A stretch of 32,206 nt of DNA, taken from the IMG/VR virus record IMGVR_UViG_3300035698_000963, positions 1 through 32,206 of that record. The stretch is one strand, 5' to 3'. A model generated the notes under the pieces. It saw only the letters and a program-made list of their open reading frames with translations. It was not told where the DNA came from and made no database searches. Positions 6,059 to 21,192 of this stretch are shown here, piece by piece (within the stretch, counting starts at the first letter, position 1; each line of letters begins with the position of its first letter). The position numbers and the translations under genes were made by a program. The DNA comes from a virus.

Positions 6059-6604
6059 TCAGCAGCCTGACAATACAACCCGCATCAACTCAATCGCGGC
6101 GCTGTAAGTCTTACCGTGGATGCTGTCACCGTGGTTCTTCTTGACCGCCGCTTCAAATTCGTCTATCGTTTCCCAGAAGCAACCTGTCTTGACCATGATG
6201 CAGGTATCGTGTTTGCAGCCAATGAGTGTGTCGCCCCTGCTGCCAATAGGTTCTATTACGATTATACCTTTGGCACGCCAGAGATCGGCACCCCTGAGAT
6301 TGGCACGCTCGAGATTGGCATCACTGAGATCGGCACCCCTGAGATCGGCACCCCCGAGATCGGCATCACTGAGATCGGCACCCCTGAGATTGGCACGCTC
6401 GAGATTGGCACCCCTGAGATCGGCACCCCTGAGATCGGCGCCCCCGAGATTGGCACCCCTGAGATTGGCACCCCCGAGATCGGCACCCCTGAGATCGGCG
6501 CCCCCGAGATTGGCACCCCTGAGATTGGCACGCTCGCCGCCCTCATCGTCATCAATCCATTTCTGGTGTAACTCAAGTATTTCCTGTAATTTATCTGCGT
6601 CCAT
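6059..6604 (-). CDS. Pentapeptide-repeat protein
   Basis: 181 residues. The first 23 residues ([20 protein letters not shown]) are the short acidic helix that often precedes phage pentapeptide repeats. Residues 24-108 are 17 consecutive A(D/N)LxX pentapeptides ([14 protein letters not shown] pattern), which fold into a right-handed square beta-helix. Residues 109-181 form a small C-terminal domain with [25 protein letters not shown] and [12 protein letters not shown], a module I know from prophage pentapeptide proteins. Some repeat proteins (MfpA, Qnr) mimic DNA and bind gyrase, but 17 repeats are short for that and the role here is unknown. It is the second gene after promoter P2b. Confidence 0.88.
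6281..6535 (-). repeat. 15-bp tandem repeat inside pentapeptide gene
   Basis: Seventeen copies of a 15-base unit of the form gagat(c/t)ggcacccct (plus-strand reading) encode the pentapeptides. Copies differ at few positions and blocks of several units recur almost unchanged, so slippage or unequal exchange could change the copy number easily. Confidence 0.9.
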
Positions 6605-7207: not shown

Positions 7208-7269
7208 TGGACGTGGCCGGAATTGAACCGGCGTTTTATGCTGCTTCCAGCACCGTACCTGTCACGCCC
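7208..7269 (-). other. tRNA-like element without D arm, or tRNA 3'-end match (possible att core)
   Basis: On the minus strand GGGCGTG (7269-7263) pairs with CACGTCC (7215-7209) as a 7-bp acceptor stem with one G-U. A textbook T arm fills 7232-7216: 5-bp stem with loop TTCAATT. Only 30 bases separate acceptor and T arm, too few for both D and anticodon arms. They contain TGCTG-GAAG-CAGCA, a 5-bp stem with a 4-base loop. No CCA is encoded. The element starts inside the end of the metallophosphoesterase gene. It may be a decayed tRNA, a tRNA-mimic at the end of the late transcript, or an attachment-site copy of a host tRNA end. Confidence 0.5.
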
Positions 7270-8134
7270 ATGATTGCCAATCCGTAAACGGGTACTTCCC
7301 GTAAGGCTGCGCCACTCCGTTTATCAGCGTCGTGAACCCCGCCGCCATGCCTGGCATCTTGTTATCGTCAAGGACCACGTATGCCAGCTTATCAGGGTCA
7401 AGCAGCGTGCCGTTATTGACGATGCAGAACCGCTTCCACTTATCCCACCCTTTCGCTAAGTGGTGTTCGTGGTGTGAGATAACATTCATCTGATACTTAT
7501 TCGCCAGCTCACCGGCCACGCTCAATTGATTGACGCTGTAATTGGCCGAGTGAGTTATACGCCAGGGATACGCGCCAGGCGTGTCGATAACGCACCAGCC
7601 CCAATTGGAATACATGCACTTATCGGACTTCGTCACAAGGCCGAATATATCCGCCTCGTCAAATTCGCCGCCAGCCCATTTCTGAAGACGTCTGTCGTGG
7701 TTCCCCATGATGAAACGTATCTCGTCGAACCACTCTAACCATTCCGAGATAATCTGACGTCCCGCCTCGCGTTCTCGCTGCCAGGTGAACGGGTTTATTA
7801 CCTTCGGATATTTCGAGAAGATGTCGAATGTGAAGAAGTCACCGGCAACCAGCAGGCGTTTCAATCCGCGCTTCTGCGCAACCTTCAGCAGCAGCCGCGA
7901 GAAGTCGTAATCCACACAAGGAACATGGACGTCGCCGGTTATCATCCAATCGCCGGACAACCGCCACGGGTCCCCAAGTTCAACGTCGAACAACTGACGG
8001 TGATGCTGATTTAGTTTATAGCGGCGTACCAGGCCCGCTACCTTACCCCTGGTCATTTCATACTGGCTGGCCAGCTCTGAAAACGAATACCCCGCGCCGT
8101 TCTGTTGTGCTAAAAGTTCGCCTGTGATTTCCAG
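7262..8134 (-). CDS. HTH-metallophosphoesterase, probable CTG start
   Basis: From ATG 8056 the protein has 264 residues and all metallophosphoesterase motifs: GDVHVP (41-46), GDFF (72-75), GNHDRR (118-123) and SHHEHH (194-199), so two metal ions should be bound for phosphodiester or phosphoester cleavage. The same frame is open for 26 more codons upstream and encodes YSFSELASQYEMTRGKV, a helix-turn-helix continuing past the ATG. An ATG start would cut the HTH in half. The only well-placed candidate start is CTG 8134, 6 bases after AGGAG; no ATG, GTG or TTG lies between. Reading through the TAG of the preceding in-frame gene is the alternative. It is the last late-operon gene. A DNA-linked nuclease or phosphatase role is likely. 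Confidence 0.78.
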   Translation of the reverse strand: MEITGELLAQQNGAGYSFSELASQYEMTRGKVAGLVRRYKLNQHHRQLFDVELGDPWRLSGDWMITGDVHVPCVDYDFSRLLLKVAQKRGLKRLLVAGDFFTFDIFSKYPKVINPFTWQREREAGRQIISEWLEWFDEIRFIMGNHDRRLQKWAGGEFDEADIFGLVTKSDKCMYSNWGWCVIDTPGAYPWRITHSANYSVNQLSVAGELANKYQMNVISHHEHHLAKGWDKWKRFCIVNNGTLLDPDKLAYVVLDDNKMPGMAAGFTTLINGVAQPYGKYPFTDWQSWA

Positions 8135-8723: not shown

Positions 8724-9980
8724 CTATAATTCCGCATCGGCTGTAAAATGAAAACCAGACATTTTTCCGACCACTAATACTGTGGATATTTGTAGCCTAG
8801 TAAGACCCGTGTCTCCCCTTGTATGAGCGATAACGGTTTCATCAGCCGCATTCGAGCGCACTTTATTTTTGGTGCCTGTTCCTATCGCGTACGGGACAAT
8901 TGTTGGAGTAGTTCTCATTCTTACCGGAAAAGACGACCTGCCAAAAGTATATGCAGTTTGTTCGTTGTAAAAATAAACCGCTCCGTTTGTTGTAGCATTA
9001 CCGATTGCAGTCCCGTATGAATAAGTAGTGTGCCAATATCTCTGACACAACGCCACTTCTTCCTCATGCCCACCCCCTCGAATTCTGAACGGTGTTGCCC
9101 TATCCCCGATCTCTAATTTTAGTTGAGATAAGAGGAAATTGTTGTCTGTAGAATCACAAGCGTTTACTTGATTGGATGTGGAGAAATATGCTCCAGTTTG
9201 CCACGTATCAGGAGTTGTTTGGTAAGTTGCCCCACTCGCAAGAACAAACCGTATATCAAAACCTTTCCCGTCTGTATAATCTTCTGTCCCCCCGGCCTGA
9301 TCGAGCGTCAAGGTGATTTCTTTCTTCTCCCATGTGTTAGTTACATCAACTACATATTCAACAACATAAGAACGATCAGACCCATTATTCAAAAATCCAA
9401 CACAGAATGTGCCTGTCTTTGTGCTTTTTACCCAGAAAGAAAGTGTCACAGTCTTTTCTTTCATAGGGGCATAATCGTATCCCTCGACTTTGTATCCAAT
9501 CTCGTTATAATCCCCAGCGGCAATTGCCGCATCAATCGTAGTGCAATCCACCTTCAAACTATGTTGTGATAGATGTCCACTCTCTGAGAAGGTTGGCACG
9601 TCTGTGTCTTGTGTAACGGTATTTACCATAGCCCCGTTTTTGTAGTATTTCATTCTATCAAGCGTATATACACCGTCCCCCGCCGCCGCAAAAGTCGTGC
9701 CTCTCTGGGCAATTTCCATATCCCCGTTGATGATTACGTTATTACCATCTTCGGACGCGTCCCATTCAACACCCGCGGCGGTGGTCGTTAGTTGTCTCCC
9801 GGCTACCGCTGGATGCGCTAATGCCGTGGCCGCGTTCGCCGCGCTCGCTACCGCTAACTGTCCGGCGGCGGTGAATATGTCCGGCACGCCCGCCGCCATG
9901 TTATCTTTCAGATAAGTATTTTGATTAGCCGCCGTCCACAGATCGCCCGTGCTAACGGTTGGAACTGCTGTATATGCCAT
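8724..9980 (-). CDS. Tail fibre / receptor-binding protein
   Basis: 418 residues. It opens MAYTAVPTVSTGDLWTAANQ, an N-terminal segment seen in short phage fibres, followed by an Ala-rich helical stretch to about 70. From residue 80 the sequence NVIINGDMEIAQRGTTF and then VYTLDRMKYY marks the start of a carbohydrate-binding beta-sandwich found in phage tail and virion proteins; strands such as TVTLSFWVKST and LKLEIGDRATPF follow. The C-terminal 120 residues (CQRYWHTTYSYGT, FPVRMRTTPTIVPYA) are typical of the tip region of such fibres. Its start touches the stop of the preceding gene. It should recognise host surface glycans. Confidence 0.8.
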   Translation of the reverse strand: MAYTAVPTVSTGDLWTAANQNTYLKDNMAAGVPDIFTAAGQLAVASAANAATALAHPAVAGRQLTTTAAGVEWDASEDGNNVIINGDMEIAQRGTTFAAAGDGVYTLDRMKYYKNGAMVNTVTQDTDVPTFSESGHLSQHSLKVDCTTIDAAIAAGDYNEIGYKVEGYDYAPMKEKTVTLSFWVKSTKTGTFCVGFLNNGSDRSYVVEYVVDVTNTWEKKEITLTLDQAGGTEDYTDGKGFDIRFVLASGATYQTTPDTWQTGAYFSTSNQVNACDSTDNNFLLSQLKLEIGDRATPFRIRGGGHEEEVALCQRYWHTTYSYGTAIGNATTNGAVYFYNEQTAYTFGRSSFPVRMRTTPTIVPYAIGTGTKNKVRSNAADETVIAHTRGDTGLTRLQISTVLVVGKMSGFHFTADAEL

Positions 9981-10267: not shown

Positions 10268-11706
10268 CCAAATATAGAAGTTATGCCTATCTTAGTCGTG
10301 AACCGCCAGTATCCCAATACCCCCGAATAAGGTTCAATCCAGAATTTTGTAACAGTTCCTTGCCCGTTGCTATCAGTCCATTTGTGGCTCATGCCTGCAA
10401 TGGAGAAGTCATCGTCAATACCGAAATGCGCCAACTCAACTCCGATAACGTCGAATAGGTCAACGCTGAATTGATTTGTGAACTGGTCAATCATTCCAAT
10501 TTGCGGAAACGGTTGAGGCTGTCCAATCGCTGACGCCAGGAACTGCGCGAAGTCGCGCGCGGTGTTCGTGTCCTGTAACCATAATAAGTCCATCGTCATG
10601 CTGCGCGGATTGGTAGCGTAATCCTGCACCTCGGCGGTATATCCAAACTGACTTGTAACCGCCACCGGCTTACCGCGCACCTGCGAAAGCGTCACAAATA
10701 TCGTATCGCTGGCGTGGTCGTTATCAATCACCAGTTTCGACGTGTCAGCGAACTTCGTTATCGTCACCGTGGTATCGGCTGTTCTATCAATGCCGCCGCC
10801 GTCCGCTTGAGTATTGGTGGTATAGTCTGTCGTTGCAACAGGGTCCGCTACATCCTCAGCAGGATTGCGATTGCCTGAATAGGTGAACTCAGCCCATACC
10901 GTCAGACTGTCACCCGGCGCAATGGACGGTGTATCCTGCAATGTCCATATTACTTGTAAGGATTGCGATACGCGCGGGTTCGCCTTCACCGTGATAATGT
11001 TGCGCACGTTATCCCACGGTTGAGGTAATATGATTTCCTGCAACAAATCGGATTGTGTACAATCAAACGATGCGGCGATTACCTTCTGTCTGCTGTAATA
11101 TGTGGCCTTTCCATCGGCTGCAGCGAAGAAAGTACCCATACCGGAATTGGTGAGGTCGGTAATCATCTTGAAAGCACTATCACCGTCAGTCCACCAGTAA
11201 GGTATATCCTCCGGCGCGTCATCCAGCGCACGGCCCCACTCCGCAGGCCAGTCTACATCATCAAGAACGTGACCTATTGCCGCGTCTGCGTCGATGTCAT
11301 CATAGAGCGCGGTTGATGAACTTCTATCAATCAGCCAGCTTATGCCGTCATATATCGTCAATTCCACATAAGCATTATTTCCGCCTCGTGGTACGATGTC
11401 CGCGATCTTGCCGCTGAATATTGTATAGGTATCCACTCCATCAGTCACACGAACGCGCGCCAATCTGCCTGGCGCAACGTCAGGATATAACACGCTGCTG
11501 GCGTTCCATGCGTCGTAACGTCCATCATAGTTATCTAACTTGATACGCGTGATACCAATCCGTACCGGCTGGATGCGCTGGCCGTCTGACGAGATATAAG
11601 TTTTACGCCCGCGCTGACAGTCGAAGTCCACCATCCTGTTGGCCTCGTCCGCCTCGTATGAGCCGTCATTATCCCAGTCGATGTCGAGATACCAGGTAAT
11701 CGCCAT
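10261..11706 (-). CDS. Tail-tip / baseplate hub-like protein
   Basis: 481 residues following the tape measure, where siphoviruses encode the distal tail and tail-associated proteins. The start MAITWYLDIDWDNDGSYEAD with VDFDCQRGRK resembles tail-tip proteins of environmental siphoviruses that begin with a Trp/Asp-rich strand. The middle (ILPQPWDNVRNIITVKANPR, then IWTLQDTPSIAPGDSLTVWA) and end (FSIAGMSHKWTDSNGQGTVT) read as beta-rich domains, the last resembling the end of hub proteins that build a ring at the tail tip. No peptidase or muramidase motif is visible, so lytic activity probably resides elsewhere. Confidence 0.7.
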   Translation of the reverse strand: MAITWYLDIDWDNDGSYEADEANRMVDFDCQRGRKTYISSDGQRIQPVRIGITRIKLDNYDGRYDAWNASSVLYPDVAPGRLARVRVTDGVDTYTIFSGKIADIVPRGGNNAYVELTIYDGISWLIDRSSSTALYDDIDADAAIGHVLDDVDWPAEWGRALDDAPEDIPYWWTDGDSAFKMITDLTNSGMGTFFAAADGKATYYSRQKVIAASFDCTQSDLLQEIILPQPWDNVRNIITVKANPRVSQSLQVIWTLQDTPSIAPGDSLTVWAEFTYSGNRNPAEDVADPVATTDYTTNTQADGGGIDRTADTTVTITKFADTSKLVIDNDHASDTIFVTLSQVRGKPVAVTSQFGYTAEVQDYATNPRSMTMDLLWLQDTNTARDFAQFLASAIGQPQPFPQIGMIDQFTNQFSVDLFDVIGVELAHFGIDDDFSIAGMSHKWTDSNGQGTVTKFWIEPYSGVLGYWRFTTKIGITSIFGW

Positions 11707-14430: not shown

Positions 14431-15429
14431 CTAAGTCAGCGCTGACAATGCGTTTACAACCGTCAACTCTGCGAATAATGCGGCTGTACTATCGTACCGC
14501 GCCCGTAATGTTCCGGTAACAATATCGTTACCATCTTGTTCGCCTATTTTCGAGAACGTTTCCCATTTGCCCGCCAGGTCGATGATGGTTGTCTTGTATG
14601 TGTAAGTCGTACCAGCGGTGGTAAATGCTGTACCTTCAATCATAATCCGCATCTGTCGTGCCGTCTCTGCTTCAAAGTTGGCAATCTCAGCGACGCCCGT
14701 TGTATCATGCTCGAATGTGACTTCACACGTAATCTCTGGGCCGGTGTTCTTGTCGAACGTGAAGTATAGATTTCCATCGCCCGTGAATACAGGAACGAGG
14801 CCGGTGCGCACATTCAAGTTGAAACCTAAGAAGGTGCTAGTCGCCTGCGTTGTGCCAATCGTGCCGCCAGCAGCATCCAGATACAGTTTAGATTTCTGGA
14901 ATAACATTTCTTCAACCGCTGGTACTGCAATCGAACCGGTGAATGACACATTAGATACCTGCCGCCCGCTCCACTTTGACGATACCATGATGCTTCCACC
15001 AGGTGCGCCGGACAAGGTGAAGTCCGATACAAACGAATACTCCATCTCGCGCGCCTGCTGATTGTCGCCACCTTCAAGGGTGTACGTCTTGATGGTATTG
15101 GCTGCCGTTGTGGGGAAACTGTACTCGTAGATATAACCGGAGCCGCTGCCGTCCTGTGCCGGTGTCTCGGATTTGACGCCCGCCTCAAATACATAAGGAA
15201 GCTGCTCAAATGTAGACTCAACATCTTCCATGTCCAGCACGGCCATGACTTTAGGCGAGTACGTGCGGTCAACGCCTGAGAGGTATCCTATGTCCTCGTC
15301 AGCGTGTACGATCTCGCGCTGGTCTTCAATCGTGCCTTTGCCGCGCCATAGGAACGTTGCTACAACCGCTGTTCCTTTGGTGGTTTCCGCGCCCCCCTGA
15401 ATTTTTCGTAGTGCTTTTACGCCTGCCAT
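14431..15429 (-). CDS. Major tail (tail tube) protein
   Basis: 332 residues, beta-rich and Gly/Thr-rich, located just before the chaperone pair as expected for the tail tube subunit. MAGVKALRKIQGGAETTKGT, then FLWRGKGTIEDQREIVHADED, resembles the start of tail tube proteins of many siphoviruses. Mid-sequence strands such as YSFVSDFTLSGAPGGSIMVS and LGFNLNVRTGLVPVFTG fit the two-sheet tube fold. The C-terminal third (ITCEVTFEHDTTGVAEI and onward) may form a further strand-rich domain. The start overlaps the preceding 62-residue gene by 13 bases. It should polymerise into the tail tube. Confidence 0.85.
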   Translation of the reverse strand: MAGVKALRKIQGGAETTKGTAVVATFLWRGKGTIEDQREIVHADEDIGYLSGVDRTYSPKVMAVLDMEDVESTFEQLPYVFEAGVKSETPAQDGSGSGYIYEYSFPTTAANTIKTYTLEGGDNQQAREMEYSFVSDFTLSGAPGGSIMVSSKWSGRQVSNVSFTGSIAVPAVEEMLFQKSKLYLDAAGGTIGTTQATSTFLGFNLNVRTGLVPVFTGDGNLYFTFDKNTGPEITCEVTFEHDTTGVAEIANFEAETARQMRIMIEGTAFTTAGTTYTYKTTIIDLAGKWETFSKIGEQDGNDIVTGTLRARYDSTAALFAELTVVNALSALT

Positions 15430-15605
15430 TTGCTTACCTCCATTTCTTGTACTACCTCAATCACTTTAGATTTCCTCGGCTTCACGCGCTCCGCGTAAAG
15501 TCCTGTATCAAGTAAGAGTTTCTTACCGTGTTTCGCGACTTCCTCATCATTCAAGTCGCGTGCCGGGATGCCCGGCAGGAACGAACCAGAACCGATATAC
15601 CTCAT
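15417..15605 (-). CDS. Small conserved virion-region protein, 62 aa
   Basis: Start at ATG 15605, set by ATGA overlap with the glycosyltransferase stop; the frame is open further upstream but only as an antisense-like shadow within that gene. MRYIGSGSFLPGIPARDLND, then GLYAERVKP, matches a short protein I associate with head-tail or tail modules of siphoviruses (G-x-FLPGIPARDL). It marks the return to structural genes after the glycan cassette and is translationally coupled to the last cassette gene. Confidence 0.65.
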   Translation of the reverse strand: MRYIGSGSFLPGIPARDLNDEEVAKHGKKLLLDTGLYAERVKPRKSKVIEVVQEMEVSKWQA

Positions 15606-16264
15606 CTGTACCTCCCGCGCGCCCGTGCTGTTTCCCAGACGGTACGCAATTGTTCGCGGTGTTCCGCGCTGTCTTTGCGCTTTAGGTAAGCGCCCAATGG
15701 TTCGGCGATGCGCTGGAATTTCACGCCAGCAGTCGCCAAACGTAACCACCATTCATAATCTCCGGCGATGTGAAACGCCGCGTCAAAGTGTCCGTGCTTC
15801 TCATGTAATGACTTCCTCCACATGGGTGCAGGCCCTACGAAGCAACCTTCTAATAGTTTCGCAAGGCCGCCCTCAGCCCATGTAAACTTGCTAACCGGCT
15901 TACCGTCAATCTCCTCCACAATGTTCACATCAGGATATACAACGCCGATGTGCTGCTTATCGTCCAATAGCTGCGCCATTCGTGCCAGCGCGCCAGGGTA
16001 CAACCTGTCGTCGCTGTTGGCACTTGTGACATAATCGCCGCTCGCTTCCTTGATACCCATATTCCAGGCGTCGTATATCGTCGGAATGTCAGGCGTGTAT
16101 ATCACGGTGCATTTATTGGTACGTGCTACCTTCGCTTCCGGCGTGTCAAGCTGCGCGATAACCACAATCTCAAGTTCGCAATCCTGCGCCTTGAGATTGG
16201 CAATGCGCCCCTCTATATATTCCTCTGCGTAATACGCTGATACAATCGCTGATACTTTGGTCAT
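15602..16264 (-). CDS. Family 2 glycosyltransferase (GT-A fold)
   Basis: 220 residues. It begins MTKVSAIVSAYYAEEYIEG, the usual first strand of GT2 enzymes, has NSDDR at 83-87 as the metal- and nucleotide-sugar-binding DXD-type motif, and GDYEWWLR at 168-175, where the ED-like acidic pair and Trp hold the acceptor. It lacks membrane segments, so it is cytosolic. Substrates cannot be read from the sequence. It is the last cassette gene; both ends overlap neighbours by ATGA. It would add a sugar to a phage virion protein or another acceptor. Confidence 0.85.
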   Translation of the reverse strand: MTKVSAIVSAYYAEEYIEGRIANLKAQDCELEIVVIAQLDTPEAKVARTNKCTVIYTPDIPTIYDAWNMGIKEASGDYVTSANSDDRLYPGALARMAQLLDDKQHIGVVYPDVNIVEEIDGKPVSKFTWAEGGLAKLLEGCFVGPAPMWRKSLHEKHGHFDAAFHIAGDYEWWLRLATAGVKFQRIAEPLGAYLKRKDSAEHREQLRTVWETARARGRYR

Positions 16265-16908
16265 GGTATCCTTTCAAACACGGTAATCGAACCCTCTGCA
16301 ATAATCTTTTTCCATCGCTTATCCTCGCTCGCTATCTCCACCGCTGCCATCACGTGTGGATGCGCCTTGTCTGTGTCATCGAACGCTATATAATGCGTTA
16401 CAATATCCTTCAATGACATCCAATCCAGCGTGGGCGTGCCGTGCCAGTGGTCGCCGTCAATGAACGCGACGGTGAACGTCATGCCTGCCAATTCTTCCGG
16501 GAATGGTTGTGATGGTTTCTGTACTAGGACCACGTCCGCATTATAAAAATTACTAACGTTCTTCAAGAACGTCCCAGCTGTCCAATGACAACCGGAATGT
16601 AAATCAAAACTATCCGTGAACGCCTGCGCCTGGTTCTTAATACATTGTTCGCGCCCGTCCAGCGGGTCGACACAATATACGCTGCCGGTTATGCCTTCCG
16701 ACCATTTTGCCAACGATGCGACGATTGCGGAAACACCAAAGTATGAGCCTATTTCTATTGTGCCACCGTGGCCCGCCATAACAGACAATGCCGCAACTAC
16801 ACGGGTATTGTAATAATCTTTGCTGACGTCAGCAGAACGCCCCTTGATACTACCGCGTACACTTTCAACAGTATACTTTATTGAGTCCATCAATTTCACC
16901 GGTATCAT
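16261..16908 (-). CDS. Class I SAM-dependent methyltransferase
   Basis: 215 residues from ATG 16908, defined by ATGA overlap with the FkbM gene. TIEIGSYFGVS at 50-60 is motif I (SAM-binding E/DxGxxxG). VDPLDG at 80-85 holds the acidic residue that binds the ribose. DGDH at 151-154, followed by a later IAFDDTD, marks the metal-dependent methyltransferase type (methyltransferase_24-like) used for sugars and small hydroxyl compounds. An O-methyltransferase acting on a sugar made by the neighbouring enzymes is the simplest reading. Two methyltransferases of different families follow one another here. Confidence 0.82.
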   Translation of the reverse strand: MIPVKLMDSIKYTVESVRGSIKGRSADVSKDYYNTRVVAALSVMAGHGGTIEIGSYFGVSAIVASLAKWSEGITGSVYCVDPLDGREQCIKNQAQAFTDSFDLHSGCHWTAGTFLKNVSNFYNADVVLVQKPSQPFPEELAGMTFTVAFIDGDHWHGTPTLDWMSLKDIVTHYIAFDDTDKAHPHVMAAVEIASEDKRWKKIIAEGSITVFERIP

Positions 16909-17585
16909 TCTTTCACCCCGATCACCGTGGCGTGTGTCGGCCATTGGCTGCCAGGCTCATAAGGTACGACTTCCATTATCTCGCGGTCAACCTTCAGCAC
17001 GTCAAACCCGTGCTTCATAAGCGCACCGGTGATTACCTCTGGCTCGCCCTGGTTCGGATGTATCTCGATAATCCAGTATTCCACTTCGTTCATTTCGTCG
17101 AACGCAGCAGGCATAATCTCGAACTCGCCGCCTTCGATGTCAACCTTGACAACCGTCGGCCATTGCGCGAACGATGATAACTTAGCGCACTCTACCAGCG
17201 CCCCGCCGTGGCCAGCCATGCCATTACTACCGCCGCCGAATTCAACCAATCCAGCGCGTGACCAGATGGCCTTATTATGCACCCGGTACATCGTCTGCAG
17301 ATTGCTGAGATTGCGCGCCGTTATCTGACAGTTCGGTTCATAGGCGTCAACCGCTATGACGTGCGCACCGCAGGCCGCCAATACAACCGCGTAATTCCCT
17401 TGATGGCATCCAGCGTCAAGCACTATCTCGTCCTCAAGTGGTACGTGTTCCATAACCCACTCGTACTCTAACTTAGTATAATCTTTCAGCGGGTCAAACC
17501 AATCCACCGCCTGCTGCGTCGCGTACAGGTACGGCACTGCCGTATCACATAACTGCATATTCTTGAGGTATGGATTAAAGGACAT
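16905..17585 (-). CDS. FkbM-family methyltransferase
   Basis: 226 residues. IVLDAGCHQGNYA at 54-66 is motif I. TVVKVDIEGGEFEIMPA near 144-160 is the hallmark of FkbM proteins (K-x-D-x-EG-x-E), and VEYWIIEIHPNQ follows. Family members O-methylate sugars or secondary metabolites, and many are found in polysaccharide and glycoprotein clusters. The start overlaps the nucleotidyltransferase stop by 11 bases, so all cassette genes are one transcription unit. The N-terminal 40 residues are a helical cap with no visible signal peptide. Confidence 0.88.
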   Translation of the reverse strand: MSFNPYLKNMQLCDTAVPYLYATQQAVDWFDPLKDYTKLEYEWVMEHVPLEDEIVLDAGCHQGNYAVVLAACGAHVIAVDAYEPNCQITARNLSNLQTMYRVHNKAIWSRAGLVEFGGGSNGMAGHGGALVECAKLSSFAQWPTVVKVDIEGGEFEIMPAAFDEMNEVEYWIIEIHPNQGEPEVITGALMKHGFDVLKVDREIMEVVPYEPGSQWPTHATVIGVKE

Positions 17586-18219
17586 AGCACAACTCCTTAT
17601 AATCCTTGAAGGATGCTATGTCGTGGTAATAGTCAAGGCTGAGGCATATATACCCGAATTCCTCCATAGCCATGTTGAAAGCGTCTGTATGGGTCTTAAT
17701 ATTATCAATATTATCCATCCAGTAATCACGGACTTTCTTACTCCATGCGAGCGCGCCATAGGCTGTATACATACCGCTTGTAAATTCCTTATCATGTATC
17801 TGTCCATGATGCAAACATCCGAATCTGTCCGGCGCATCTGTGTAGTGTACCCATATAACAAAATCCTGACCGGTATCATCTGCAATCCAATCAGTCGGCA
17901 TATACACATCAGGATAAGCGTAGTAATACCTCTCCGCCTCGAAGTATAGCCCCTCAAGTATCGCCGCCCATGCGCCCTGTAACGTTAGATTACCTTGCTC
18001 TCTCAGCAGCACTTCGCCATGTTGCACCAGGTGTTCGCGGTGTGACCGCGCCTTGCGCTCACTCGTAATCACCACCGTGCTACCCCCTTCGACTTGCATC
18101 GCACCAACCTGACGTTTCAGCAGCGTCATATCATCGGAGATTGGTAGTAATTCCTTCATGCAGCCGCCGAACCGTTCCGCGCGTCCTGCTGCTGGTATTA
18201 TGGAAAGTGACTTAATCAT
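17575..18219 (-). CDS. Sugar nucleotidyltransferase-like protein
   Basis: 214 residues from ATG 18219 (ATGA overlap with the glycosyltransferase stop). It begins MIKSLSIIPAAGRAERFGG with Lys22, matching the AAG-x-R-x-x-K signature of NTP transferases that activate sugar phosphates. Later DVYMP and the acidic-aromatic stretch near YAYPDVYMPTDW fit the metal site. At 214 residues it is shorter than RmlA (about 290), so a truncated or specialised form is likely. It would make an NDP-sugar for the adjacent glycosyltransferases. Confidence 0.78.
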   Translation of the reverse strand: MIKSLSIIPAAGRAERFGGCMKELLPISDDMTLLKRQVGAMQVEGGSTVVITSERKARSHREHLVQHGEVLLREQGNLTLQGAWAAILEGLYFEAERYYYAYPDVYMPTDWIADDTGQDFVIWVHYTDAPDRFGCLHHGQIHDKEFTSGMYTAYGALAWSKKVRDYWMDNIDNIKTHTDAFNMAMEEFGYICLSLDYYHDIASFKDYKELCYVL

Positions 18220-18842
18220 GAGTGTGTCACCTCCATCTTCCCCCCAGGCTGCCAGCCATGCTTCGAGTTGAAATACTCTATGTTGCGCTGTCGTGTCGCT
18301 GGATACCCTGGAATACTCCACCTTGTCTTTCCCCAATGATGGACGAATGGCATCTCAATCGGACGCGTCTCAAATCCGAACTCAATCGCTCTGACTGAAT
18401 AATCGGCGTCCTCAAATCCGCACACCTTGAAGTTCTCGTCAAACTCGCCGACTACCTGCCATACGGTGCGCGGTATTGCTACAATCCAATTGCCGAACCA
18501 TGTATGGCCTGCTTCCTTGATAATCTGCCTGGCGTATATCGCATCAGGCTCTTGCGCTTCGATGTGCCGTGAGAATGGCCCGTTGCATGATACGTCATTG
18601 TTCATGGACAAGAACCAATCCGCGGACGTCGCCGAACGAATACCCAGGTTGATTGCCTCGGCATACGGCACGCGCCACTCAGCGCGGATACCGTGAACTC
18701 TTGGTATCTCCGGGTAATCTTCCTTAGATGCGTTGTCTACCACGATGATGGATACCTGCGGCTCAAACTTCTGGATGTCCTTGATAAGAGGCCAGGTGTA
18801 TTCCTCAAACTGGTCTATGCCAACTATGATAACGCTAAGCAT
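18216..18842 (-). CDS. Family 2 glycosyltransferase
   Basis: 208 residues. MLSVIIVGIDQFEEYTWPLI begins the nucleotide-binding strand and helix, SIIVVDNASKED at 31-42 holds the usual VVDN-x-S, and NNDV at 81-84 is the DXD equivalent. GFEDADYSVRA at 142-152 supplies the ED acceptor motif typical of rhamnosyl- and related GT2 enzymes. No membrane span is present. Overlaps with both neighbours tie it to the cassette. The donor is unknown. Confidence 0.87.
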   Translation of the reverse strand: MLSVIIVGIDQFEEYTWPLIKDIQKFEPQVSIIVVDNASKEDYPEIPRVHGIRAEWRVPYAEAINLGIRSATSADWFLSMNNDVSCNGPFSRHIEAQEPDAIYARQIIKEAGHTWFGNWIVAIPRTVWQVVGEFDENFKVCGFEDADYSVRAIEFGFETRPIEMPFVHHWGKTRWSIPGYPATRQRNIEYFNSKHGWQPGGKMEVTHS

Positions 18843-19056
18843 TAGGATCCTCTGGTTTCACCATCAGCCCAAGATGATCAAGGCATATAGTAGTACTAAA
18901 GTCATCATCACTACATATACACATCTTTGCTTGCATCTTGTCATAATATTTCCCATAGATGGGCATATTGCCATATCGTTCCCGTTGATATTCAGGAATA
19001 TCCTTTATCACATTCTCAAAAACACACTTCTCACAAATCCCCATCATTACTACCAT
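18835..19056 (-). CDS. Small Cys-rich protein in the glycan cassette
   Basis: 73 residues from ATG 19056, with AAGGA upstream and a 7-base overlap with the preceding stop; later ATGs at 19047 and 19044 are possible. Cys positions are spread as ICEKCVFEN near the start, MCICSDDD in the middle and TICLDHLG later, which could make one Cys4/His site. The composition differs from the enzyme neighbours. Role unknown; it may be a zinc protein that partners with a transferase or an unrelated moron. Confidence 0.55.
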   Translation of the reverse strand: MVVMMGICEKCVFENVIKDIPEYQRERYGNMPIYGKYYDKMQAKMCICSDDDFSTTICLDHLGLMVKPEDPNA

Positions 19057-19688
19057 TCTTGCCAATCCTTTCGCTCGAATACGTCAAGCTCGCTGCCAGG
19101 CGTCAGGTTCACAACCTGTCGTCCTGCCTTATCGAATACCGTGCGCGCCATCCTGTACGCCTGCTCGCTGCGCTTCAAATCAGGATTGTGCCAGCGCACG
19201 CCCTCGCCGAAATAATCAGGGTGGAAATGGTTGGTGTCAACCCCGCCGGAAACGGCTAATTGATTTGGCATACCTGTAAAAGTGTAGCGATGGTCAACAC
19301 CAACCAGCCCAACCCTTTCAAACCCCATCCAGAAAGCTAGCTGTAATAATACATAAGTAACGGTAAACCCTTCATAAATGTACTTGAGCGGGTCACGTGA
19401 GAACGATGGTGATGGCGATGAGTATAACGGATATGAACGGTCTATCTTATCGTGAAACTCCCACCGGATATACTTGACGGCGCAATCCATCGCGTTGATA
19501 GCGTCTACGTTCTGCTCGCACACTAACGGATTAATACACGCGTAATAAGTCGGTATGAACCAATCCAGCATGAATATTTTATTGCTGCCGAACGATGGCC
19601 AGCGTTTCAGGAAGTCAAGAGGAATGTCCTTGAGGCTCGGCCCGTTGCCGATTACAAGGCAAGTGTCATTTGTGAGTTCATTTATCAT
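19050..19688 (-). CDS. DUF115/MptE-like protein, likely glycan-related
   Basis: 212 residues from ATG 19688, placed by ATGA overlap. It contains CLVIGNGPSLKDIPLDFLKR, where GNGPSL (14-19) and the start layout match DUF115 (MptE-like) proteins. These occur beside sialic- or pseudaminic-acid flagellin glycosylation enzymes and in some phage islands. Later, AFWMGFERVGLVGVDHRYTF is the second conserved part, with a Gly-Val-Asp acidic end. Family members are thought to transfer nonulosonic acids to protein or to be related to sialyltransferases. That hints at a virion-protein glycan but is not proven here. Confidence 0.72.
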   Translation of the reverse strand: MINELTNDTCLVIGNGPSLKDIPLDFLKRWPSFGSNKIFMLDWFIPTYYACINPLVCEQNVDAINAMDCAVKYIRWEFHDKIDRSYPLYSSPSPSFSRDPLKYIYEGFTVTYVLLQLAFWMGFERVGLVGVDHRYTFTGMPNQLAVSGGVDTNHFHPDYFGEGVRWHNPDLKRSEQAYRMARTVFDKAGRQVVNLTPGSELDVFERKDWQEW

Positions 19689-19984
19689 TCGCTCACCGCC
19701 ACATTTTCTGATTGCATCCGACAAAACATACCTTCAATGATACATGGAACATACTGTATATTAATGCGATAACCACACCTTTCACAAATAATATCGTCCA
19801 CCGGTTCTATTGCATCCCATACGTCTTTCTCATTTCTTATAACGTGTCCTTTATAAATATATTTAGTACCAGAACAAAGTGTGAATTGTTTTTCACAATT
19901 ATCACAAGTTCCGGTTGAATGTCCAACAGTCGATATCACGTCTTCAATATTTACTCCATCAAAAATGCAGCTAATATCACTCAT
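19685..19984 (-). CDS. AT-rich Cys-rich small protein, 99 aa
   Basis: Starts at ATG 19984 with ATGA overlap on both sides. CDNCEKQFTLC at 27-37 and CERCGYR further on give two CxxC pairs, probably binding zinc; another Cys pair follows near the end (PCIIEGMFC). The gene is visibly richer in A and T than the transferases beside it, suggesting separate acquisition. No enzyme motif is evident. Its role in the cassette is unknown. Confidence 0.6.
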   Translation of the reverse strand: MSDISCIFDGVNIEDVISTVGHSTGTCDNCEKQFTLCSGTKYIYKGHVIRNEKDVWDAIEPVDDIICERCGYRINIQYVPCIIEGMFCRMQSENVAVSE

Positions 19985-20757
19985 TCTTTCACGTCCTTCG
20001 GCGGCAAATTCACAACCTGCTGATTAGTCGCGTTGTGGTACGCTCGGAACGTTGACTCGTCAACCTTGCCATCAATCATGTGCGGCGATGTTACCGTGGT
20101 ATCGGCGTATAACTTCACTCCCGCTTCCCTGCAGCGCGCCGAGAATGAAATGTCCTCGCCAGGCCAATGGTTCTTCCATACGCTTGAGTAATCATACGTG
20201 AACCACGGCGGCTCAATCGCCTCGAATACGCGGCGGTCAAATAGAACGCAACCCGTACCGAGTACATCGCACTCCATGAGTCCTTGCTCCCATTGGTACG
20301 GTGCGTACACGGTATCGTCTTCGCCGTAGAAGTATATACACGGGTCAAAGGGTGCGCCGCGCCTAAAGTTAAGGCCGCCCACTACCCACACATCATCGTC
20401 AAGTAGTACCCATTTTGACAAGCGCTGTATGAGGTCGTCAGGATGAGTGTGATCGATGTCCAACATCAAGACGTGTGTCATGTCCGACTTCAATAATTCC
20501 TGTGCTGCCTTATTGCGATTGAAGTCTGTCCTACCATAGCCCATCTTGAGGTAAGGTGCGCCCATCTGCGCGTACGATATTAGCGGCCAGAGTACCTTGT
20601 CAGCATGCGCAATGCAACGCTCAAGTAGTGGCGCTACCATTACGCGCGGATACGCCCAATCCGCTATTGGCAGAGTGTCGAGTACCGCCAGCCTGTCATC
20701 TCCCGGCGGCGGTGTCAAATCTTGTTTCTTTCTGTGTGGCCGTTTCCGTTTAGCCAT
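19981..20757 (-). CDS. Glycosyltransferase-like protein, first cassette gene
   Basis: 258 residues. A basic N-terminus (MAKRKRPHRKKQ) leads into a GT-A type fold: MTHVLMLDIDHTHPDDLI at 93-110 contains the D-x-D (100-102), VWVVGGLNFRRG follows, and WPGEDISFSARCREAGVKLY at 198-217 holds the ED acceptor pair; a late His (SPHMIDG) is a likely metal ligand. This is a family seen in many environmental phages. Its start is adjacent to the tail-terminator stop, with AAGGAG a little upstream. It marks the left border of the structural block in transcription order. Confidence 0.82.
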   Translation of the reverse strand: MAKRKRPHRKKQDLTPPPGDDRLAVLDTLPIADWAYPRVMVAPLLERCIAHADKVLWPLISYAQMGAPYLKMGYGRTDFNRNKAAQELLKSDMTHVLMLDIDHTHPDDLIQRLSKWVLLDDDVWVVGGLNFRRGAPFDPCIYFYGEDDTVYAPYQWEQGLMECDVLGTGCVLFDRRVFEAIEPPWFTYDYSSVWKNHWPGEDISFSARCREAGVKLYADTTVTSPHMIDGKVDESTFRAYHNATNQQVVNLPPKDVKE

Positions 20758-21192
20758 TTATATACTACTCCTTATTTTTACATCTTGAATTGTGAACTCT
20801 ATTCCTATTGTCTGTACACCGGCATAAGTGAATATGCTATACTGGTACGCTATCGGCTCGACGTCATCACCTCCGATTGTTGCAACTGCTCCTCCGAGTG
20901 TCGGGTCATCCATGATCGCTTTCGGTATTGCCTCAATGTATTTATCGATTTGCTTCAGCGATTGCGGCATTTTATTATCTGATACATGTAATTCTACCGT
21001 AATTTGATGAATTCCGCGAATAGTTCCCGCTCCTGTATCGGATTTGAATATACCGTTATTCGGGTAAGTCATCACAAATGGATAATGGCTCATGTTATCC
21101 GGCGCGTAATCAGGCGCGGCACGTATTCCGGATACCGTAAGTATCACGTCCTGGATTGCGTTAATGGCCGTTTGCAGTTCGCTGATTGCCAT
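20758..21192 (-). CDS. Tail terminator-like protein, 144 aa
   Basis: Lies directly after the head-tail connector, where siphoviruses encode the tail terminator. The protein begins with a helix (MAISELQTAINAIQDVIL), followed by beta-strands (YPFVMTYPNNGIF, IHQITVELHVSD), then a helix KQIDKYIEAIPKAIM and a final strand pair; this alternation fits the alpha-beta fold of the terminator family. It should cap the tail tube and join it to the head. TGATG-type overlap with the upstream gene supports the start. Confidence 0.68.
   Translation of the reverse strand: MAISELQTAINAIQDVILTVSGIRAAPDYAPDNMSHYPFVMTYPNNGIFKSDTGAGTIRGIHQITVELHVSDNKMPQSLKQIDKYIEAIPKAIMDDPTLGGAVATIGGDDVEPIAYQYSIFTYAGVQTIGIEFTIQDVKIRSSI

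Follow-up and report, generated by a model that had tools for sequence, protein, structure and literature searches.

A putative virion-glycosylation cassette beside the tail tube gene of an uncultured tailed phage

Glycosylation of phage particles has been described for a few mycobacteriophages. Work cited in PMC12363180 describes glycosylated proteins in Che8, Corndog and Myrna, with both capsid and tail tube glycosylated, and Che8 gp110 is reported to be necessary for glycosylation of the capsid. In Corndog, genes for an O-methyltransferase, two glycosyltransferases and a putative N-acetylglucosamine-transferase lie between the portal and protease genes; their products were detected in infected cells and not in virions, and the authors proposed that the capsid is modified with methyl groups and glycans (PMC4351075). 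A related arrangement is found in the IMG/VR virus record IMGVR_UViG_3300035698_000963, which comes from an uncultured tailed phage. The stretch analysed here, called the window, is this whole record (32,206 bases; possibly an incomplete genome), and the element in question is a block of nine open reading frames (ORFs) between its tail terminator and tail tube genes.

The block can be read as a virion-glycosylation cassette, in which soluble enzymes made late in infection would build an O-methylated oligosaccharide on a surface protein of the virion, most likely the tail tube. The probability of this reading is estimated at about 0.62. The activities, the order of the steps, the sugars, the acceptor and the benefit are all proposed from the sequence. 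The minus strand of the window encodes terminase, portal, a Mu-F-like protein, capsid, neck, adaptor and tail terminator, after which the block and its flanking genes are arranged as follows.

20758..21192, minus strand: tail terminator gene, the upstream anchor (phrog_17840, E 9.4e-6; NCBIfam neck terminator, weak)
19981..20757, minus strand: GT1, glycosyltransferase of GT-A fold, 258 amino acids (profile and AlphaFold; LDID 99-102, GED 200-202)
19685..19984, minus strand: small Cys-rich ORF with CxxC pairs (cys2), 99 amino acids (composition: GC 35.7%, third-position GC (GC3) 26%)
19050..19688, minus strand: DUF115/MptE-like protein, glycosyltransferase of Maf/GT42 fold, 212 amino acids (PF01973, profile, model)
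18835..19056, minus strand: second small Cys-rich ORF, 73 amino acids (composition: GC 37.8%)
18216..18842, minus strand: GT2, GT-A glycosyltransferase with NND, 208 amino acids (PF00535)
17575..18219, minus strand: NTP, MobA/IspD-like nucleotidyltransferase, 214 amino acids (PF12804 and profile)
16905..17585, minus strand: FkbM-family methyltransferase, 226 amino acids (TIGR01444, PF05050)
16261..16908, minus strand: MT24, class I methyltransferase, Methyltransf_24, 215 amino acids (PF13578)
15602..16264, minus strand: GT3, GT-A family 2 glycosyltransferase with NSDDR and GDYE, 220 amino acids (PF00535)
15417..15605, minus strand: small conserved gene, about 62 amino acids, the downstream anchor directly before the tube (kept in most relatives)
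14431..15429, minus strand: tail tube gene, 332 amino acids, candidate acceptor (homologues matching PF18906; position from terminator to tape measure)

An earlier reading made from the letters alone (the sequence-only reading) had placed nine ORFs at 15602-20757 on the minus strand, between terminator and tube. The ORF coordinates and flanking genes agree with this, and the motifs it named are found in the ORFs. It had described all nine as coupled by short overlaps. Within the block the overlaps are 4-11 nucleotides; the terminator stop abuts the GT1 start without overlap, giving junctions of 0-11 nucleotides overall. Overlaps of four nucleotides (ATGA) occur at GT1/cys2, cys2/DUF115, GT2/NTP, FkbM/MT24 and MT24/GT3, and the remaining junctions measure 7-11 nucleotides. 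Internal ATGs gave improved start codons for DUF115 (19688), NTP (18219) and MT24 (16908).

The block does not reach the tube gene itself. The start of a small gene (15417-15605; about 62 amino acids, MRYIGSGSFLPGIPARDL...) overlaps the GT3 stop as ATGA, and most relatives keep this gene directly upstream of the tube, whether or not they have a cassette. No family match was found for it. The point of insertion is thus the junction of terminator and small gene, which corrects the sequence-only reading on the tube side.

The cassette resembles the known mycobacteriophage systems in kind. Corndog and Firecracker (both cluster O) likewise carry several glycosyltransferases and a methyltransferase inside the structural block, but at another position and with no DUF115/GT42-like, NTP or FkbM gene there. 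Che8 gp108-gp110 also include phage-encoded glycosyltransferases, but these genes lie near the right genome end, outside the structural block. Against the cassette profiles, Firecracker gp33-gp36 score at most 11.2 bits and Che8 gp108-gp110 at most 9.9 bits. By sequence, then, the cassette is not built from close homologues of the enzymes of Che8 or of cluster O, the latter represented by Firecracker.

Related loci provide the strongest evidence that the block is a recurrent unit. Relatives are viral contigs (labelled L with a number) found by searches with the tube, DUF115 and GT1 proteins. In 63 distinct loci with both anchors, the junction is empty in 37 (8-585 nucleotides), holds cassette genes in 20 and holds something else in 6; the set includes loci recruited with DUF115 or GT1, so these proportions are not a frequency estimate. 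The comparison of related phages with and without the block that had been proposed with the sequence-only reading therefore finds the same slot empty in many and filled in others. The arrangement is not due to chance, as many separate viral contigs share it. The tube tree requires the site to have switched at least 10 times from empty to filled or back. With the glycan label treated as a group, the minimum is 11 changes, 4 of them forced by strongly supported branches.

Insertions are not spread evenly over the structural block. Among loci recruited with the tube alone, the terminator-tube interval holds cassette families in 14 of 54 cases, the capsid-adaptor interval in 7 of 46 and the adaptor-terminator interval in one of 53. 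None are present between tube and tape-measure protein (0/40), neck and capsid (0/29), tape-measure protein and next tail gene (0/24), MuF and neck (0/20) or portal and MuF (0/17). The Fisher p for this comparison, 2e-6, is only indicative, since the loci share ancestry. Four terminator-tube intervals hold an insertion of at least 150 amino acids without any cassette gene. One encodes another glycosyltransferase family (L232; PF00535, 2e-7), one is 63% identical to it (L257), one belongs to a family otherwise seen with cassettes (L287), and one is not glycan-like (L263). Altogether, 17 of the 18 filled sites among the 54 tube-recruited junctions are glycan-related or hold a cassette-associated family, L287 being counted by association only.

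A family of about 370-407 amino acids occupies the terminator-tube slot beside the cassette in L094 (8814-9995), with homologues in L258, L261, L279, L287, L296 and L297. A suspicion by eye that this family is DUF115-like (369-407 amino acids; L094, L258, L279, L296, L297) was unsupported by profile comparison. In L084 (1284-8378) the tail site is empty, and genes for one methyltransferase and one glycosyltransferase lie between capsid and head-tail adaptor, together with a gene for a lectin-like protein (Laminin_G_3).

Searches of 50,697 phage records gave no match for the DUF115, NTP and tube proteins. GT1 gave one weak match (MW202496), where a glycosyltransferase gene also follows the capsid gene. 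Relatives of the terminase were too distant for a comparison of synteny.

The seven glycan enzymes named in the sequence-only reading are well supported by Pfam and NCBIfam matches, profiles, two AlphaFold models, catalytic residues and gene fusions, and the family and structure searches it had called for assigned each one to a family or fold. For GT1 the Pfam match is weak and below the cut-off. Its best profile match in the PDB is A197 of Sulfolobus turreted icosahedral virus (STIV), which is also the closest solved structure to its AlphaFold model (predicted local distance difference test, pLDDT, 89.0; Z 18.5, 172 residues, 2.4 Å, 19% identity). Like GT1, A197 is a viral GT-A glycosyltransferase, but it comes from a virus of archaea. 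The next matches to the model are the glycosyltransferase domains of human LH3 (Z 16.7) and mimivirus R699 (Z 15.4), and the protein glycosyltransferases LH3 and COLGALT1 are among its fold neighbours.

GT2 matches PF00535 (Glycos_transf_2) with 25.7 bits against a cut-off of 23.3, and the first N and the D of its NND are conserved in all 30 rows. GT3 passes the cut-off of the same family (4.4e-11); its profile matches chondroitin synthase, SpsA and others, and its NCBIfam matches are exopolysaccharide and teichuronic enzymes. The acidic catalytic motifs of all three glycosyltransferases are conserved across relatives.

The DUF115 protein scores 37.4 bits against PF01973 (cut-off 34.6), and all matches of its profile in the PDB are GT42 sialyltransferases. 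Its model (pLDDT 88.7) is closest to Maf (5MU5, Z 14.0) and CstII (Z 12.9), followed by M. jannaschii HPPK (Z 11.2). Judged by the fold of the model, it is therefore a Maf/GT42-like glycosyltransferase. N17 of the GNGPSL motif (97% conserved) and N38 (100%) align with GT42, and N55 is 71% conserved; H156 is 97% conserved, but lies beyond the stretch aligned to GT42. These positions were set against the nucleotide-binding asparagines and the catalytic histidine of GT42. Maf, a flagellin glycosyltransferase, is like the DUF115 protein in fold and also belongs to PF01973; CstI and CstII of GT42 have the fold in common with it. Maf attaches cytidine monophosphate (CMP)-activated nonulosonates to serine and threonine of flagellin (PMC11339370). 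It has three domains, whereas the window protein corresponds to the central one only (212 amino acids). The acceptor of the window protein may also be unlike flagellin.

NTP lies barely above the cut-off of PF12804 (27.2 bits versus 27). A profile of eight relatives matches MobA (4e-7), IspD (1e-4) and CTP:inositol-1-P cytidylyltransferase (1e-3), and a nucleotidyltransferase signature of invariant G, R, K and PD residues is conserved among relatives. FkbM exceeds the cut-offs of TIGR01444 (51 bits versus 37.7) and PF05050. MT24 matches PF13578 with 35.1 bits (cut-off 26.3), with E-x-G-x3-G and DGDH conserved. The S-adenosylmethionine motifs of both methyltransferases are conserved among relatives.

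The two Cys-rich ORFs, which had been counted as cassette members, do not appear to belong to it. Their GC content is 36-38% (GC3 26-38%) versus 48-53% (GC3 52-63%) for the enzymes, and no homologue of either was found among the ORFs of the loci searched. From their composition and distribution, they are probably later insertions outside the pathway. Such insertions do happen, as two DNA methylase genes interrupt the cassette of L099. These (9366-9971 and 10609-11289) are of the N6/N4 type and 34% identical to each other.

The cassette can be found in shorter and longer forms. Three loci (L086, L087, L088) have only GT1-DUF115-GT3, exactly between the terminator and the small gene and tube. 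A six-enzyme form, GT1-GT2-NTP-FkbM-DUF115-GT3, fills the slot in L099 and L205, GT1-DUF115-MT24-GT3 in L207 and L226, and GT1 alone in several loci. NTP occurs with GT2 in all nine loci that could be checked (L083, L098-L103, L205, L258), and FkbM is also present in eight of them, which suggests from gene content that NTP, GT2 and perhaps FkbM form a sub-module.

Some of the genes are also fused. GT1 and DUF115 form a single ORF in L098, L100, L101 and L102, and DUF115 and GT3 in L109 and L116. Bacterial contigs carry long single ORFs that link DUF115 to GT3-like domains, at times together with FkbM or MT24 domains (for example L121, L124, L126 and L127). That the same partners were fused independently speaks for enzymes acting one after another in a single pathway. 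The bacterial ORFs (L121, L124, L126, L127, L144) reach up to about 2,300 amino acids; they combine DUF115 with GT-A domains, and some add a methyltransferase domain. A genome scan found bacterial DUF115 proteins from many phyla; only L146, a Chloroflexi metagenome-assembled genome, also had GT1 and MT24.

The core is not always at the tail. In L203 it lies between capsid and head-tail adaptor. In L105, the PHROG and Pfam names of the flanking genes comprise capsid and a weak tape-measure match only; gene order alone suggests that another tail module, unrelated to the first, is arranged in this way. Near the core, on its downstream side, L104, L106, L107 and L108 share a protein of 174-217 amino acids (DDINELISLRD... 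in L104 and L108, partly similar in L106 and L107).

The window tube protein has no Pfam or PHROG match, and the tube-family profile has no match in the PDB. At the corresponding gene, the homologues in L228, L232 and L257 pass the cut-off of PF18906 (Phage_tube_2). A higher serine and threonine content of tubes with a cassette (18.9% versus 17.4%, p 0.008) is unsupported after relatedness is considered. As an acceptor signature it was not upheld in independent pairs, and none of 331 columns was convincing.

A possible mechanism is as follows. The enzymes would be translated together with the late structural genes and would assemble a short oligosaccharide directly on the protein in the cytoplasm. 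None of the cassette enzymes has a predicted transmembrane segment, which makes a lipid-linked membrane route less likely than direct cytoplasmic transfer to protein, as by Maf on flagellin. The likeliest acceptor would be the tail tube, whose gene lies a short way downstream, and after it the major capsid protein, because cassette genes cluster beside the genes of these two. GT1 may transfer the first sugar to the protein, since it often stands at the site without other cassette genes, and LH3 and COLGALT1 are among its neighbours in fold. GT3, the DUF115/GT42-like enzyme and GT2 would then extend the glycan, with the DUF115 enzyme possibly using a CMP-nonulosonate from the host. NTP would provide a nucleotide sugar, probably for GT2, its travelling companion, and FkbM and MT24 would add methyl caps. 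The benefit may be, for example, shielding of the particle or altered attachment.

Several points weigh against this proposal. The glycan itself is a prediction from genes, and the tubes of cassette-bearing phages lack a clear acceptor signature. The CMP-sugar synthetase family PF02348 was found in none of ten cassette-bearing records, some of which are fragments, so a CMP-nonulosonate donor would need to be supplied by the host. The DUF115 fold is also common to pterin diphosphokinases, and an HPPK activity would be compatible with the modelled fold. Finally, the core stands before terminase in L098 and L100-L103 and adjoins apparently non-structural genes in L104 and L106-L108, so the pathway does not depend on a place near the tail. 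The suggestion in the sequence-only reading that the virion is decorated thus gains indirect support, from placement beside capsid and tube, the lack of predicted transmembrane segments and the Corndog, Che8 and Myrna precedent; the glycan, the protein that would carry it and its sugars stay conjectural.

The glycan could instead be placed on the major capsid protein or on a decoration or fibre protein, the tube neighbourhood being only a convenient late-operon site. This is possible, if clearly less probable than the tube. A second hot spot lies just after the capsid gene, as in the 7 of 46 intervals above and in L203, and few capsid peptides were recovered from Corndog virions, for which the authors suggest a possible capsid modification (PMC4351075). 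However, the terminator-tube site is used more often, and insertions there are almost all of glycan type. It is unlikely that the cassette serves instead to alter the host cell surface during infection, through the glycans of wall or capsule, so that superinfection, for example, is blocked or release made easier. The fused bacterial relatives of DUF115 and GT3 are possibly surface-glycan enzymes, the NCBIfam matches of GT3 point the same way, and L104 and L106-L108 carry the core elsewhere than in the structural block. Against this, the cassette proteins have no transmembrane segment, the record has no flippase or lipid-carrier enzyme, and there would be no obvious reason for placement beside tube and capsid genes.

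More doubtful still is the idea that the site is a general insertion hot spot, where the sugar genes are carried in transit and play no part in the virion. The patchy distribution, with repeated gain or loss, would fit, as would the two small low-GC ORFs in the window block and the two methylase genes in that of L099. Fusions, the conserved GT1-DUF115-GT3 order, conserved catalytic residues and the near-exclusive glycan content of the site argue otherwise. Certain phages glycosylate their own DNA through phage-encoded glycosyltransferases, and this precedent allows for enzymes that glycosylate or hypermodify phage DNA. Such a role is very improbable here. Pfam scans of the record (possibly incomplete) found no base-hydroxylating, thymidylate-synthase-like or other base-modifying gene, enzymes of the DUF115/GT42, FkbM and NTP kinds typically act on glycans of proteins or polysaccharides, and the genes lie in the late block. 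The sequence-only reading had also set DNA modification aside, and nothing in the record supports it.

Elsewhere in the window, a pentapeptide-repeat protein (6059-6604; Pfam E 3e-42) is encoded between tail and replication genes, and a metallophosphoesterase-like protein (7262-8056) after the tail genes.

A wider and quite tentative idea is that a large group of uncultured tailed phages has a dedicated tube-side slot for exchangeable glycan modules. A Maf/GT42-type enzyme would coat their tubes with methylated, sialic-acid-like oligosaccharides, and the surface chemistry of the tail could be swapped like a serotype.

Glycosylation of phage virions has so far rested on few mycobacteriophages. 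The cassette represents a distinct set of enzymes that recurs across many uncultured phages; its site is precisely defined, beside the gene of the likeliest acceptor, and there are natural pairs of presence and absence. Such pairs make it directly testable what is glycosylated, with what and why, and the slot may give annotators a marker for glycosylated virions in metagenomes.

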